Numbered from the stretch's first letter, positions 46,824 to 55,878 are shown. The stretch is 64,000 nucleotides of DNA from Lentisphaerota bacterium (GCA_015061745.1 SUWB01000001.1:62001-126000); one strand, 5' to 3'. Notes: a model not told the origin generated them from the letters alone. Translations and numbers: made by a program.

Positions 46824-47528
46824 TCATTCTTCCAGGAACAGCCTTTCCGGAAACCAGGGATCACTCTGTCTCAAATGTCCCAGATAAATATAAGCGACAT
46901 TACCGTCTGCACCTGTTACCGGCTTGAACATTTCACGCATATCATTGATGTAAAATCTTCCGCCGGAACTATCTCCAATGACCTCACACAGCCGTCCGGC
47001 CAGCCGGGCCGCAGCAATCCGGTCCGTCACTCTGGAAAGCGGGATCCGCCGGAAACAATTTTCTCTGACTTGAATTTCAAACCGTATATCCTTACCTCCG
47101 GCCGCCAATACATAAGGGATTCCCATCATACAATTTGTCCATTCATCTCCCGCTTTGAGGGGATTACCTTCCATATCCTCAGCCCGTCCTGAAATATACA
47201 CCGTTTTCCCCGGTTCATCTTCGATCTGAAATATCAGTTCGGCCCGGTATTTTCCTGCAAGATAATATTTTCCTTCACCGCCTGCCGGTACGATCACCTG
47301 GCGGAATTCGTTGATATAAAAGGAACCTCCCGGAACTCCGCTGCAAGCTTCTTTGACCTCATTGACCATACGGACCAATTCAGGATGTTCTTTTGTCGTC
47401 GGAGTCCAATATTCGCCGTTACTGCTGTTATAGACGATTCCGACAACCCAGGAGCCTTTTTCAAATTTAACACTGTAACGGGCATCCCGGCGGACAGCCT
47501 GGGGACAATTACCGGTATAGATTATCAT
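46824..47528 (-). CDS. Unknown protein with two GGSFxINEF-type modules (helicase partner B)
   Basis: 234 residues, family not recognised. Two modules are visible: 'GGSFYINEFRQVIVP' near residue 88 followed by 'YYLAGKYRAELIF', and 'GGRFYINDMREMFKP' near residue 193 followed by 'AYIYLGHL'. It ends with 'DPWFPERLF'. The same two modules and a WFP tail occur in the gene upstream, so the two are paralogues. No signal peptide or membrane helix, and no nuclease motif that I can name. AAGGAG lies eight bases before the ATG, inside the end of the preceding gene. It is the last gene of the helicase cassette. Confidence 0.75.
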   Translation of the reverse strand: MIIYTGNCPQAVRRDARYSVKFEKGSWVVGIVYNSSNGEYWTPTTKEHPELVRMVNEVKEACSGVPGGSFYINEFRQVIVPAGGEGKYYLAGKYRAELIFQIEDEPGKTVYISGRAEDMEGNPLKAGDEWTNCMMGIPYVLAAGGKDIRFEIQVRENCFRRIPLSRVTDRIAAARLAGRLCEVIGDSSGGRFYINDMREMFKPVTGADGNVAYIYLGHLRQSDPWFPERLFLEE

Positions 47529-47540
47529 TCTCTCAACTCC

Positions 47541-48371
47541 TTAATCAACGCTGTTGTACAATATTGACAGCTGCCAGGTCTGCCATCTGTCAAGGGATTC
47601 GCCCTGGTAAATGTAATAATATTCAAAATAATGGAATCTATCACGGCTTTCTCTATCCAGGAAATTCCTTTTTGCCTCAAGATCTTCCAACATATCGACC
47701 GCCTCATCTGAACCGTCTTCAAAGTCCATTGCATCAGGAAACCAGGAATAGAAATCAATTTTTCCGACACTGTAAACAGGCCCATATCCATTATTGCTTT
47801 TGACCAGTACGACGCCGTGGCAGTTGACCAAAAATGATATACCGCTGTGCCCCGGCCTTATTCTGCGGAGTCTTTCTATCAGGTCGGTATCCTGATAAGG
47901 GGAATATATTAAGATTTCTTCACCGGCCTGATTGTTGTACTTCAAATAGATTCTGTCGTTTCCGGACAAATGGAATTTTATTCCCAGATAAGGATAAGGC
48001 CAGATCCCGGTAACCGGGGAAGCCATAGAAAAGAGATTATTGTCCAAATCCCGAAAAACCATATCTCCTGTCCAGCGGCCGATCACCCGTGGAAAGTGTC
48101 CGACAAGAGGAACTATGACCCAACCGAATTCATTGATAACAAAACTCCCGCCTGCCCGTCCGGCAAACTTCAGTTTGCACCCATTGACAGCCCAGGCAAG
48201 ATCCTGCATTTCAGAACTCATCTCGGCCCGGCAGAGGATCCTGGAATACTCATCCTGCTGAACGACATTGATCTGTTCCTGTGAATCAACGTGAAAAACA
48301 GAAGTCTTCCCGTAAGGACGTTCGTAGTGTCCCCACCATTCGATACTCTGCGGCAACCCCTTGTATCCCAC
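47541..48371 (-). CDS. Unknown protein with two GGSFxINEF-type modules (helicase partner A)
   Basis: 276 residues starting with GTG. The ribosome binding site GGAGGTGGAGT directly before it is very strong, supporting this start. Module 1 is 'GGSFVINEFGWVIVP' followed by 'VIGRWTGDMVF'. Module 2 is 'SGISFLVNCHGVVLV' followed by 'VYSVGKIDF', then 'YSWFPDAM'. The order matches partner B. No catalytic motif is recognised. The modules may form a recognition or binding fold (inference). It lies 28 bases after the helicase and 12 bases before partner B. Confidence 0.75.
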   Translation of the reverse strand: MGYKGLPQSIEWWGHYERPYGKTSVFHVDSQEQINVVQQDEYSRILCRAEMSSEMQDLAWAVNGCKLKFAGRAGGSFVINEFGWVIVPLVGHFPRVIGRWTGDMVFRDLDNNLFSMASPVTGIWPYPYLGIKFHLSGNDRIYLKYNNQAGEEILIYSPYQDTDLIERLRRIRPGHSGISFLVNCHGVVLVKSNNGYGPVYSVGKIDFYSWFPDAMDFEDGSDEAVDMLEDLEAKRNFLDRESRDRFHYFEYYYIYQGESLDRWQTWQLSILYNSVD

Positions 48372-48399
48372 ACTCCACCTCCAGTTCGTTTACAGAAAC

Positions 48400-50475
48400 T
48401 TAAAATTCCAATTCCCGGCTCAAGGCACAAAGAGCGATTACATTGCCCTCCTGCCTGACTTCAACATATTTCCTATTTCTCACAAATATTTGACTGCATT
48501 GAAGTTTGTTTTTTTCCAAACTGTCAAAAACTTCTCCGGCAAGTTCTTCAGGAAAATTGCGGGCGATCCCCTGCTTTGCCCGGGCCTGCTGAATAATTCT
48601 TTTCCCCCGGAAAGATTTTATTTTGAATTCATCAACAAGCTCCTGCTCAGATGACGGAACGGTTTGGAAGATTTCTTCCGTTTGACCGCAAAAGAGCCAA
48701 CTCCATTCATCATCATTGTTCTGACGCAAAAAGATCCTGCCGCTTGAACTTTGCCGCACATAATTGTTCTGCATCAGCATCTTAAAAGGAGCAAGCAGTT
48801 CAAGAATATTCTGAGGATTGGCAATAAACTCTTTTGCAGAACCTTTTTTACAAAAAAGATTATTGTGCTGATCTATTTGAAAATCCTTACCGTCAACATC
48901 TATTTTCAACAAACTTCCCGGCTTGACATTACTCCAATCAATTGTGTGTTCAGAAGGCAGCGGAACAACAGGGGGAGCTGGTTGTTCTGCATCAAAAATG
49001 TTCTGATTTTCATCTGCGGGATCCCAGAAAAAGTACCTGTTTCTTCTGGCTCCTGTAAGGGAAGCAAAATCCACATTGCGGTAAATATTTTCATCGGTGG
49101 TATTTTTGATGTAAAACCTTACGATCAAGCCTGTATCATCACTTCCGTTTTTACGCAGAATACGGCCGATAGACTGGATCGCCTGGATCTTTGACCCGGA
49201 AGATGCGACATTGATCCCGCAGTCCGCTGCGGGGGCATCAAATCCTTCGATCAGAGCTTTTCCGGAAACGATGACTTTAGCGATCCCCTGACGGAAAAGA
49301 GCAATACTGTTTTCTCTCAAACTCTCTTTCAGTTCCGAGTGTTCCGGAACCGCCGCAATTCCGGCATCGCAGAGCAGAGAATAAATGTGCATAACTTCTT
49401 CGATTCGCTCGTGGAACAATATCGCCTGACTTTTCCGGTTTTTCTTCAAACGTTCCTGCAAAAATCTCACCACGGCCTTTTCACGGTTGGCGGCACGGTA
49501 GAGCAAAGTTTTTCTTTCAGCGACTTTACTGACATAGTGTTTACAAACTGCTGCACTGTCCTCATCCAGTTTTCCTTTATTGAGCTTCATCGTGACCCAG
49601 CCGCTCAGTTCGCCGCCTTTGGGGGCATCCGGAAAGATCATAAAAATCCTGTCCCGCAGCCGGGTGATCTCATCAGAAATCCGCCGGTACAGAATTTCCT
49701 CATTTCCGGCAAGAGGCAGTCCCACGTGGCAGATTTCAAATTCCGGCAGGAATCCGGCCCTGACGGCGTCATCGTAATTCAATGAAAAAAAGATTTTTCC
49801 CAATTCAGAACTGAGGATCCGGTCATATTCGTTTGCTTCAGTTTTTTCCGGATTTTCTCCTGTATCGACATCTGGCGTCGCAGAAAGTCCCAGGGAATAT
49901 TTCCGTTTGATCTCAAAGATTTTACGCATAACTTCGCCGCGATAACGGTGACATTCGTCGGCGATAAAGAAAAGATTATCTTTGTAACGATCTCCAAAGC
50001 GGTCAACATAATTTGCAACGCTGTTGCAGACGCCCACAACAATGGGGTGATTATCAAGAAGGTCGCTGTAACCGCCCCCGAGGCGTCCAATTGCTGAAGG
50101 CGGCAGATTGCTGTGCCGGGCGATCACATCCACCCACTGTTCAAGTAAAACGATCGTAGGAACAACGATCAAAACCTTCAAATCCCTCTGACGGCGTTGG
50201 AGTTTTTCAGCCAGAGCCAAAGCAAACATCGTTTTTCCGGCACCAGTCACGACTTCGGCAATACCGGAACCGTTATATTTTTCCAGACATTCGGTCTGCC
50301 AGGAATAAAGCTTGACTCCTCTGGTCATCACCCATTTTTCCGGCAATCCGGCAAAGGGAGCATCTTCAGATACGGTGTTTATTTCCCCGCGTCGCCGGCT
50401 GCTCCAATAATCAGCGACTTGCAATTGGTGCAAAAGCAGCTTTTGTTTGCTGCTCAAATCGAAATTATCTGCCAC
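48400..50475 (-). CDS. SF2 DEAD/DEAH-box helicase with unusual C-terminal domain
   Basis: The ORF track starts at a TTG (50532), but the GTG at 50475 has a perfect AGGAG six bases upstream, so I use it (691 aa). Walker A TGAGKT, the DECH box (FIADECH), SATP, and motif VI QSIGRILR make it an XPB/type-III-restriction-like SF2 helicase or translocase. The last 180 residues are not helicase. They include 'GKDFQIDQHNNLFCK' and 'SGRIFLRQNNDDEWSW', which faintly resemble the modules in the two downstream partners. It lies in a tight operon with them, behind the purQ terminator. No obvious consensus promoter is seen. Confidence 0.8.
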   Translation of the reverse strand: MADNFDLSSKQKLLLHQLQVADYWSSRRRGEINTVSEDAPFAGLPEKWVMTRGVKLYSWQTECLEKYNGSGIAEVVTGAGKTMFALALAEKLQRRQRDLKVLIVVPTIVLLEQWVDVIARHSNLPPSAIGRLGGGYSDLLDNHPIVVGVCNSVANYVDRFGDRYKDNLFFIADECHRYRGEVMRKIFEIKRKYSLGLSATPDVDTGENPEKTEANEYDRILSSELGKIFFSLNYDDAVRAGFLPEFEICHVGLPLAGNEEILYRRISDEITRLRDRIFMIFPDAPKGGELSGWVTMKLNKGKLDEDSAAVCKHYVSKVAERKTLLYRAANREKAVVRFLQERLKKNRKSQAILFHERIEEVMHIYSLLCDAGIAAVPEHSELKESLRENSIALFRQGIAKVIVSGKALIEGFDAPAADCGINVASSGSKIQAIQSIGRILRKNGSDDTGLIVRFYIKNTTDENIYRNVDFASLTGARRNRYFFWDPADENQNIFDAEQPAPPVVPLPSEHTIDWSNVKPGSLLKIDVDGKDFQIDQHNNLFCKKGSAKEFIANPQNILELLAPFKMLMQNNYVRQSSSGRIFLRQNNDDEWSWLFCGQTEEIFQTVPSSEQELVDEFKIKSFRGKRIIQQARAKQGIARNFPEELAGEVFDSLEKNKLQCSQIFVRNRKYVEVRQEGNVIALCALSRELEF

Positions 50476-53533: not shown

Positions 53534-54658
53534 TTACTGCAGGATATACTTTTTGAAATCCACCTTTTCAGGAAGTTTTTTAAGGTTCTTGTGTGCGGGG
53601 ACGACCTCTGCGGCGTTCCCCGCAGCCAAAACGACACCGCCCTTTTCCATAAACCTGAGAAGCTCCTGCTGGACAAATGGATATTTAAAGGTTTGCTTAT
53701 AAAAAAGAGCACAACCGTGGGGGAGTACCAGATAATCAAGATGACGGAGCATCCCGTCATAGATCTCTCTCAGCATCACATAATCAAGATCGATATCAGG
53801 ATGCCGTTCCAAATCAAGCATCGCTCTGACAGGTTCGTGCCCCTGCAGACCGGAACTGACAAAACCGACCCGCCAGGGACGGGGATTTTTCCTGGGGAAC
53901 ACAGGGGTCATACGGACACCGGTCACGGCATAAAAACATCCAAGCATCAACGGATGATTACTGTCCCAATATTCCGGATGAAAACTTGTGGCAATGATTT
54001 TTCCTTTTCCATAGGTCCCGTAGATCACAGCAGGAGAATCAAAAAACACCTTCTCAAACTTTGCTTTTTTAGCAACAGCTGTTTTGAAGACTCCCAGCGT
54101 TTTCCCTTTGCCGCCCTTTGCCGCTGACTTAAGAGGAAAAACCAGAGGGCCGCCGGAGTAACGCACCACGTGGATCCCGGGTTTGACACCCATAATCCGA
54201 GCCCCCTCTTTTGAAATTTCCACATTGACAAAAGAGGTGGGGCCGCCGGCGTTCTGATAACGGTCATAAGGAAGCAAATTCAGGCGGATCCCCGGCTTGC
54301 CCTGGACGACATTGTACATTCCGGCACAGGTCCCCACATAGGCACCTCCATTTTTCAGGAAGGTGTGGACTTTTTCCTCGTGTTCAATTCCGATCGTTTT
54401 CACCTGACGCCACGAATTCCCCCCCGGCATCACAAGAACATCTATCTCTTTGAGTTTTCCGGCCCGGATATCTTCTGCCATCACGGTCACAAGTTCCGTC
54501 TGGGGGGAATGGGCGATCAGACTTGCCAGATGCAAAACGCCGTTGCCTTTGGATCCGAAATCAACATAAAGACCGACCTTCAATTTTTCCGGAGCTTTTC
54601 CGGCAGCAAGAGTGCAGACAAATAAGGCAGAAATGATAAGAAGCAATAATTTTTTCAT
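53534..54658 (-). CDS. Secreted BPL_N (glutamine-amidotransferase-like) protein, copy 2
   Basis: 374 residues with a signal peptide (KKLLLLIISALFVCTLAAG). The core 'KVGLYVDFGSKGNGVLHLASL', 'VLVMPGGNSWRQVK' and 'GGAYVGTCAGMYNV' has the class I amidotransferase-like elbow with Cys in GTCAG, as in the biotin-protein-ligase N-terminal domain family (PF09825). A second region of about 110 residues ('PWRVGFVSSGLQGHEPVRAMLDLERHPDID') looks like a further alpha/beta unit. It is paralogous to the gene 62 bases upstream along most of its length. Role unknown; likely periplasmic. Confidence 0.75.
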   Translation of the reverse strand: MKKLLLLIISALFVCTLAAGKAPEKLKVGLYVDFGSKGNGVLHLASLIAHSPQTELVTVMAEDIRAGKLKEIDVLVMPGGNSWRQVKTIGIEHEEKVHTFLKNGGAYVGTCAGMYNVVQGKPGIRLNLLPYDRYQNAGGPTSFVNVEISKEGARIMGVKPGIHVVRYSGGPLVFPLKSAAKGGKGKTLGVFKTAVAKKAKFEKVFFDSPAVIYGTYGKGKIIATSFHPEYWDSNHPLMLGCFYAVTGVRMTPVFPRKNPRPWRVGFVSSGLQGHEPVRAMLDLERHPDIDLDYVMLREIYDGMLRHLDYLVLPHGCALFYKQTFKYPFVQQELLRFMEKGGVVLAAGNAAEVVPAHKNLKKLPEKVDFKKYILQ

Positions 54659-54720: not shown

Positions 54721-55878
54721 TTACTTGAGGATGTATTTTTTGAAATCCACCTTTTCAGGAAGTTTTTTGACGTTTTTGTGGCTGGGAACGATCCCTGCGG
54801 CATTGCCGGAAGCAAGGATCACGCCGCCCCGGTCCATAAACATCTTGAACTGCTCCTGAACAAAGGGTTGTCCCATATATTGGTGAATAACCTTTTTGTT
54901 TCCGTGAGGCATCACCAGGTAATCAAGGTGTCTCATAATACCCTGATTGAGTTCAGCCATCATAACGTAATCCACGTCGATATCAGGATGTTTTTCCAGC
55001 TCAAGCATCGTTCTGACAGGTCCGTGTCCCGTAATGCCCGTACTCAACACGCCCACACGCCAGGGGCGTTTGTTCTTTTTGGGGAACACAGGAGTCATCT
55101 TGACGCCCTTCACAGCGTAGAAACATCCCAGCATCATATCGTGGCATTCGACAGAATATTCGGGGTGGAAACTTGTGGCAACAACTTTGCCTTTGCCGAA
55201 AGTGCCGTAGACCCACGCCACACTGCCGATGAATTTGCCCAGATGCTTCGGGTTCTTGCAGACAGCACTTTGGTATGTGGCAAGAACAATGCCTTTGCCT
55301 TCGCATTTGGCATCTTTGACAGCATAAGCCACAGGACCGCCGGAATAACGGGCAACGCGGCGTCCGGGTTTGATCCCCAGGATCTTTGCTCCTTCCGGTG
55401 TGATATCAATGGTGGCATAAGAAGTGGAACCGCCTGCACCGCCATAACGGCTGAAGGGAAGCAGCTGCAAACGTTTGTGAATCTGAAGCACGTTAAACAT
55501 ACCGGCACAGGTCCCCACATAACCGCCCCCGTTCCTCAAAAAGTCACGAATCTTGTCGTGATGCTCCAAGCCGATAGTCACACACTGTTTGGTGGAACCG
55601 CCGCCGGGCATAACAAGTATGTCGATCTCTTTGAGTTTTCCGGCACGGATATCACTTGCAAGCAGTGTCACAAGTTCCGTCTGGGGAGAGTGTTCAATGA
55701 GACTTGCCAGATGAAAAACGCCGCTGCCGCTGGCACCGTAGTCAACATACAACCCTACACGCACCTTCTTTTTTTGAGGGGCCTGCCCACACTTTCCGCT
55801 GCCGGTCGCAGTACAGGCACAGAATGCCATACAGCACAAGGCCGCTGCTATTAAACGTACAAACAATATTTTCATCAC
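54721..55878 (-). CDS. BPL_N (glutamine-amidotransferase-like) lipoprotein, copy 1
   Basis: 385 residues. The N-terminus 'FVRLIAAALCCMAFCACTATG' is a lipoprotein signal with lipobox AFCAC, so it is anchored, unlike copy 2. The amidotransferase-like core (VGLYVDYGASGSGVFHLASL, VLVMPGGGS, GTCAGMFNV) and the C-terminal unit ('RPWRVGVLSTGITGHGPVRTM') match copy 2 throughout, including the shared final 'KLPEKVDFKKYIL'. A recent tandem duplication with different localisation is the simplest reading. Confidence 0.75.
   Translation of the reverse strand: MMKILFVRLIAAALCCMAFCACTATGSGKCGQAPQKKKVRVGLYVDYGASGSGVFHLASLIEHSPQTELVTLLASDIRAGKLKEIDILVMPGGGSTKQCVTIGLEHHDKIRDFLRNGGGYVGTCAGMFNVLQIHKRLQLLPFSRYGGAGGSTSYATIDITPEGAKILGIKPGRRVARYSGGPVAYAVKDAKCEGKGIVLATYQSAVCKNPKHLGKFIGSVAWVYGTFGKGKVVATSFHPEYSVECHDMMLGCFYAVKGVKMTPVFPKKNKRPWRVGVLSTGITGHGPVRTMLELEKHPDIDVDYVMMAELNQGIMRHLDYLVMPHGNKKVIHQYMGQPFVQEQFKMFMDRGGVILASGNAAGIVPSHKNVKKLPEKVDFKKYILK

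Follow-up and report, generated by a model that had tools for sequence, protein, structure and literature searches.

A helicase gene and two paralogous partner genes sharing an unlisted domain: a candidate anti-invader cassette in a Lentisphaerota bacterium, with relatives in haloarchaea

The window analysed here is a stretch of 64,000 nucleotides from a Lentisphaerota bacterium whose assembly totals 3.1 Mb. Three adjoining genes, read along the minus strand in the order helicase, partner 2, partner 1, form the cassette under study. Their coordinates, strand and layout, and the two short gaps between them, had been given correctly in a first-pass annotation. The features are as follows.

48400-50475, minus strand: SF2 helicase gene, GTG start, 691-aa product
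48655-48930 (approximate limits), minus strand: helicase C-terminus, first copy of the shared domain (hhalign and AF2)
48400-48650 (approximate limits), minus strand: helicase C-terminus, second copy of the shared domain (hhalign and AF2)
48372-48399, minus strand: gap of 28 bases before partner 2, with ribosome binding site GGAGGTGG (from the sequence)
47541-48371, minus strand: partner 2 gene, GTG start, two shared-domain copies and a 64-aa tail
47529-47540, minus strand: gap of 12 bases before partner 1, with ribosome binding site GGAG (from the sequence)
46824-47528, minus strand: partner 1 gene, ATG start, two shared-domain copies

Shine-Dalgarno sequences precede all three starts (AAAGGAG for the helicase, GGAGGTGG for partner 2 and GGAG for partner 1), as expected from the strong ribosome binding sites claimed earlier. 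GTG starts had also been claimed; these are used by the helicase and partner 2, but partner 1 begins with ATG. Upstream lie purQ/argJ, and downstream an acyltransferase gene followed by lptD (names read from their sequences, with no family search), a placement between housekeeping operons that agrees with the original description. Elsewhere in the window, two tandem secreted paralogues (53534-54658 and 54721-55878, minus strand) have similar starts (KVGLYVDFGSKGNGVLHLASLI and RVGLYVDYGASGSGVFHLASLI); presumably they resemble a BPL_N-type glutamine-amidotransferase-like fold.

The helicase consists of an XPB/PbeA-like SF2 core (residues ~51-470) and a C-terminal di-module (residues ~515-691), with the motifs TGAGKT, DECH, SATP and QSIGRILRK all intact. 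Pfam recognises ResIII (6.4e-20) and Helicase_C (6.3e-14), and the closest solved relatives in the PDB are XPB/Rad25 (4.7e-20). PbeA is the best PADLOC family (3.3e-44, covering the core only), with HamB (7e-4), DrmD and other PADLOC models giving weak matches only. The closest NCBIfam family is TIGR04095 (dnd_restrict_1; 1.7e-29 over the core, far under the family cut-off). These nearest families of the motor, PbeA and TIGR04095, are both restriction helicases. Assignment as an XPB/Rad25 equivalog was rejected, the helicase scoring 50.3 bits against a cut-off of 610 for NF045503 and 28.4 against 328.7 for TIGR00603. With the core recognised in Pfam, PDB and PADLOC and a pair of shared domains at the C-terminus, the protein is, as first described, an SF2 helicase with a non-helicase C-terminal domain.

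Partners 1 and 2 are paralogues (hhalign between their families, 98.2%, E 4.5e-14), and each gives two matches to an HMM of the module (4.7e-19 and 9.3e-18 in partner 1; 2.7e-20 and 1.1e-15 in partner 2), which bears out the earlier view of paralogues with two modules apiece. Partner 2 has a degenerate second copy (SGISFLVNCHGVVLVK). Both proteins had been said to end in a WFP segment; this is so for partner 1, where it lies near the end, but partner 2 runs on beyond WFP in a tail of ~64 aa that is absent from its relatives. No significant family match to either was found in Pfam, NCBIfam, PHROGs or PADLOC, and their joint profile has no match among solved-structure sequences, so that they were rightly placed outside the recognised families; a match to a known non-defence family had been named as a refutation, and no family of any kind was matched in the libraries searched. 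Pfam DUF3669 on one homologue (7e-4) was rejected, being below its cut-off and spanning just 20 residues. The trio contains no recognisable nuclease or other effector domain. In PADLOC, the partners match none of BREX, DISARM, Hachiman, Gabija, Druantia and Zorya and the helicase only weakly, in line with the claim that the cassette corresponds to none of these systems.

The "GGSFxINEFxxVIVP" module that had drawn attention to the partners is real, but it is merely the best-conserved hairpin of a longer domain of ~85-110 aa with the order b-b-b-helix-b-b-b, which is not listed in Pfam, NCBIfam, PHROGs or PADLOC. Copies of common ancestry occur twice each in the helicase C-terminus, partner 1 and partner 2, giving six per trio. 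The likeness of the helicase C-terminus to the partners, first called weak, is stronger than claimed, two full copies being present. Because the module HMM by itself does not reach the window helicase, the domain is placed there by profile comparison and an AF2 model. With four bacterial helicases on the helicase side, hhalign relates the first copy to partner-only modules at 96.1% (E 3.4e-9; 48.2 versus a shuffled maximum of 13.5) and the second at 93.5% (E 2.2e-7; 39.9 versus 16.1). AF2 models partner 1 as two b-b-b-helix-b-b-b units (pLDDT 84.8, pTM 0.83); the model of the helicase C-terminus is weaker (pLDDT 65.3, pTM 0.37) and gives nearly the same element order twice (first copy EEE-H-EEE; second EE-H-EEE, pLDDT about 75-86), the input alignments being shallow (7 and 4 rows). 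The domain shows no conspicuous pattern of catalytic residues, and the positions conserved in it (GG-F-I/V-N-E, G, W) seem to be structural.

Fold searches led to sliding clamps. Of the 50 best PDB ranks for partner 1, 49 were PCNA, the first 25 ranks for the helicase C-terminus were all PCNA, DnaN or 9-1-1, and a search of the viral library pointed to PCNA as well; these counts are inflated by PDB redundancy. The matches, none of them significant, have E values of at least 0.0096 (0.012 in PDB), TM of at most 0.23 and rmsd of at least 10 A, against a significance cut-off of E <= 0.001 or TM >= 0.5. A profile relation to bacterial DnaN (28 sequences) was rejected, with hhalign E values of 0.039 to 0.67 and most scores near those of shuffled controls. 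The six repeats per trio echo the six domains per ring of PCNA, DnaN and 9-1-1. The models weakly suggest that the trio's domain is related to the sliding-clamp fold, which we treat as a lead, not a result. It is a long shot that the six b3-a-b3 domains would close into a hetero-trimeric, clamp-like ring round DNA that tethers the motor, as an immune counterpart of PCNA/9-1-1 with a built-in motor in bacteria and haloarchaea. As a separate observation, the DnaN middle domain (PF02767), present in 56 of 59 sampled genomes, was not found in the window's assembly; this is probably an assembly gap.

The first-pass annotation had named co-occurrence of the three genes in other genomes as a point on which its proposal could fail. 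The trio is present at every one of the nine loci where a helicase of this clade was found: the window, a sheep-gut Lentisphaeria, DBS2-1.bin101 (L081, a bacterium of the window's phylum), a member of the Verrucomicrobiales (L024) and five haloarchaeal plasmids, the independent cases being fewer than nine since the archaeal records L020 and L026 are near-copies of each other. A scan of 100 related genomes gave one further trio and one lone module, and a species-genome scan gave four loci: a sheep-colon Lentisphaeria (the same contig as the trio of the first scan), DBS2-1.bin101, a Victivallaceae lone module and Verrucomicrobiales. The trios of the three bacterial relatives have the gene order of the window; in L024 the contig stops within partner 1, and a second contig of that genome has module copies in a 213-aa frame. 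The haloarchaeal relatives were reached by tblastn of the helicase against plasmids. Adjoining their helicases are genes of ~280-300 aa, each encoding the shared domain twice, and partner A, partner B and the trio-type helicase are all found in the same five plasmid records, in the order A-B-helicase in three. The bacterial partner 2 is related to haloarchaeal partner A (hhalign 97.4%, E 1e-11), as is the bacterial helicase C-terminus (95.3%, E 2e-8, 169 columns); the scores are 82 and 61 bits respectively, versus 26 bits at most in column-shuffled controls (60 per comparison). Partner 1 compared directly with partner A shows a weak relation only.

In a helicase-core tree of 14 rows, for which no outside data supplied a root, all nine helicases of trios fall into a single exclusive group (support 100/99) that leaves out the XPB rows. 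No module was found in the loci of the five helicases outside this clade; a sigma-fused helicase of Arthrobacter and a helicase of Rhodococcus were set aside as related motors without the shared domain. In Paenarthrobacter (L018:7965-10934, plus strand) a related helicase core is joined in one protein to a sigma-70 factor that looks complete, and in Ruegeria (L090) a sigma-like HTH protein lies immediately before PbeA.

The distribution is sparse: the module is present in three of 388 genomes drawn from the window's phylum and in none of 33 congeners of the window genome, collections beyond this phylum having been covered with restricted tools. Weak profile matches in three further genomes (G075, G308 and G240) were dismissed as chance: they were short, lacked a fitting gene context or ran antisense to genuine genes. 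Each of the five congeners compared has DNA beside purQ unlike that of the window. Horizontal gain of the window trio fits this sparse spread and the differing purQ flank, although the comparison yielded no exact empty site.

A placement in defence islands had been suggested as a point to survey, and it holds for several relatives, which lie among restriction or defence genes, but not for the window copy, beside which no defence gene occurs in the stretch read. In L081 the genes ahead of the trio are one for an N6 methylase (Type I MTase), two of unknown kind, one for a large protein with AAA_16 and one for a protein like HsdS; after the trio come DUF2130 and a HerA gene of which the start is present (recognised by similarity to HerA from L024). 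L024 has HerA and a kinase-TPR protein beside the trio. The phage-defence-candidate protein PDC-S26 is encoded 2.5 kb downstream of the sheep-gut trio. Near trios on haloarchaeal plasmids are Mrr, SNF2/DrmD-like and UvrD-type helicases, other haloarchaeal trios having unremarkable neighbours; in Haloferax and Halorhabdus, partner B is separated from partner A by genes for a nuclease of Mrr type, a large protein and an SNF2 protein. The genes for Type I MTase, HsdS, HerA or a kinase that lie beside the trio in L081 and L024 recall MADS/HerA clusters. Their matches to mad2, mad5 and mad8 are weak, and generic Type I and HerA models fit better; none of mad1-mad8 lies beside the window trio, and among the mad models listed none is matched by its proteins. 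Membership of MADS was accordingly rejected.

Such neighbours, in the two bacteria and again in Haloferax and Halorhabdus, raise the reading that the trio supplies the helicase and recognition functions of a larger system resembling restriction (with Type I MTase, HsdS, HerA, kinase, or Mrr/SNF2), the window copy being an incomplete remnant, inactive alone. We consider this unlikely: at five of the nine loci (the window, sheep-gut, L020, L025 and L026) none of these genes lies beside the trio, yet all trio genes there are open and their domains conserved, and the extra genes are not the same in bacteria and archaea.

Several other genes were observed in these loci. The Victivallaceae lone module is surrounded by BrxL, PglZ, a kinase/phosphatase/vWA set and Cas13b. 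The Cas13b-like protein (L005:4734-7718, minus strand; PADLOC 2.3e-28) has two R-x4-H motifs and directly adjoins a type II-like Cas1 (L005:3737-4759, minus strand; 7.2e-81), an unusual pairing that lies beside BrxL, PglZ and the kinase/PP2C/vWA set. At L003:1384-1665 (plus strand), with BREX and kinase genes around, a protein of 93 aa, which begins like a signal peptide, has the C-terminal half of the shared domain only. Natrinema pellirubrum plasmid pNATPE02 carries a PIWI-domain gene (L025:1598-3682, plus strand) 2.3 kb before the trio (partner A). A 1245-aa haloarchaeal protein with many C-x2-C zinc-ribbon-like repeats lies between the Mrr nuclease and the SNF2 protein (L082:9353-13090, minus strand), and Halorhabdus has a large unnamed gene in the equivalent position.

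The motor's nearest solved relatives being XPB/Rad25 (4.7e-20), the trio might instead be a DNA-repair or replication-restart helicase complex, like XPB with the nuclease Bax1, and not a defence system. XPB/Rad25 and XPBII with Bax1 (DUF790) likewise combine an SF2 motor with a dedicated partner gene, as do the plasmid XPB helicases of Deinococcus and Haloarcula, whose own partner is DUF790. Bax1, however, belongs to a different family from the trio partners, and the trio helicases form a clade of their own apart from XPB. The very patchy occurrence, with absence from all 33 congeners, the plasmid-borne copies in five archaea and the restriction-type neighbours also speak against repair, which we find less probable still. 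A mobile-element or plasmid function (replication, maintenance or anti-defence) unrelated to host protection is very unlikely: the five haloarchaeal copies are on plasmids and a transposase gene lies near one, but partner queries gave zero matches in 50,697 phage records or (five queries) in 2.9 million viral contigs, and no mobile-element genes surround the bacterial copies in the stretches read.

PbeA has an N-terminal PLD/HKD nuclease and the partners PbeB, PbeC (an ABC ATPase) and PbeD (PMC6459918, PMC10853773). That the trio is a divergent Pbe (phosphorothioate) system is hardly credible, since, although PbeA is the motor's best PADLOC family (3.3e-44) and the two share a related SF2 motor, gene content contradicts it: the helicase has its own C-terminal domain and no PLD/HKD (no PLD in Pfam; motifs start at ~residue 51, and the PbeA match begins at ~248 of 672 in the profile), PbeB, PbeC (CxC ABC ATPase) and PbeD (DndE) are not among the window neighbours (two partners, acyltransferase, lptD), the partners are unrelated, and the PbeA of Ruegeria lies outside the trio clade.

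With the shared domain in all three proteins and the trio in unrelated bacteria and haloarchaea, the cassette is probably an anti-virus system that has yet to be described. We favour, with somewhat better than even confidence, the reading that it is an undescribed, three-component, helicase-centred system against invaders. The housekeeping surroundings of the window copy, the lack of a recognised effector domain and the unremarkable neighbours of some haloarchaeal copies weigh against this reading. The defence or DNA-transaction module proposed in the first-pass annotation is supported by the co-occurrence, the unmatched partners and the neighbours of the relatives, from which we infer defence itself. 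Neither the trio nor its domain was found described in the open literature (searched by words and by haloarchaeal accession), which is weak evidence of absence.

As an anti-invader system, the trio would be built on an XPB/PbeA-like motor that binds DNA and moves along it. Its C-terminal b3-a-b3 pair would assemble with both partners into a heteromeric complex of six related domains, the shared domain mediating assembly of the partners on the helicase C-terminus and contacting DNA or a viral target. The partners and the helicase C-terminus would thus be the DNA-gripping or target-sensing part, and the ATPase would move, remodel or block incoming DNA. Some relatives may link the trio to HerA together with methylation/specificity proteins, or else to an SNF2 protein together with an Mrr nuclease. 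Without those genes, in the window and three haloarchaeal plasmids, it may block or stall invader DNA with no nuclease of its own; alternatively, it may feed partner enzymes where such enzymes exist. In Hachiman a helicase senses the state of DNA and has a dedicated partner (PMC12278908), and an analogous mode of action of the trio is plausible. HamA is a nuclease, however, no HamA model matches the trio partners, and the match of the trio's motor to HamB is only 7e-4.

Helicase-centred defence is a kind already known, and neither the shared domain nor the trio is described in the libraries and papers found. The cassette offers three defined genes, open to test, with a domain family unlisted by four current libraries and with related versions placed in both bacteria and archaea. 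From the presence of one domain in the motor and in each partner, a particular architecture is predicted: six related domains in a single hetero-complex. If clamp-like, it would join sliding-clamp biology and immune-helicase biology; if defensive, it would add a helicase system that senses its target through a new domain.
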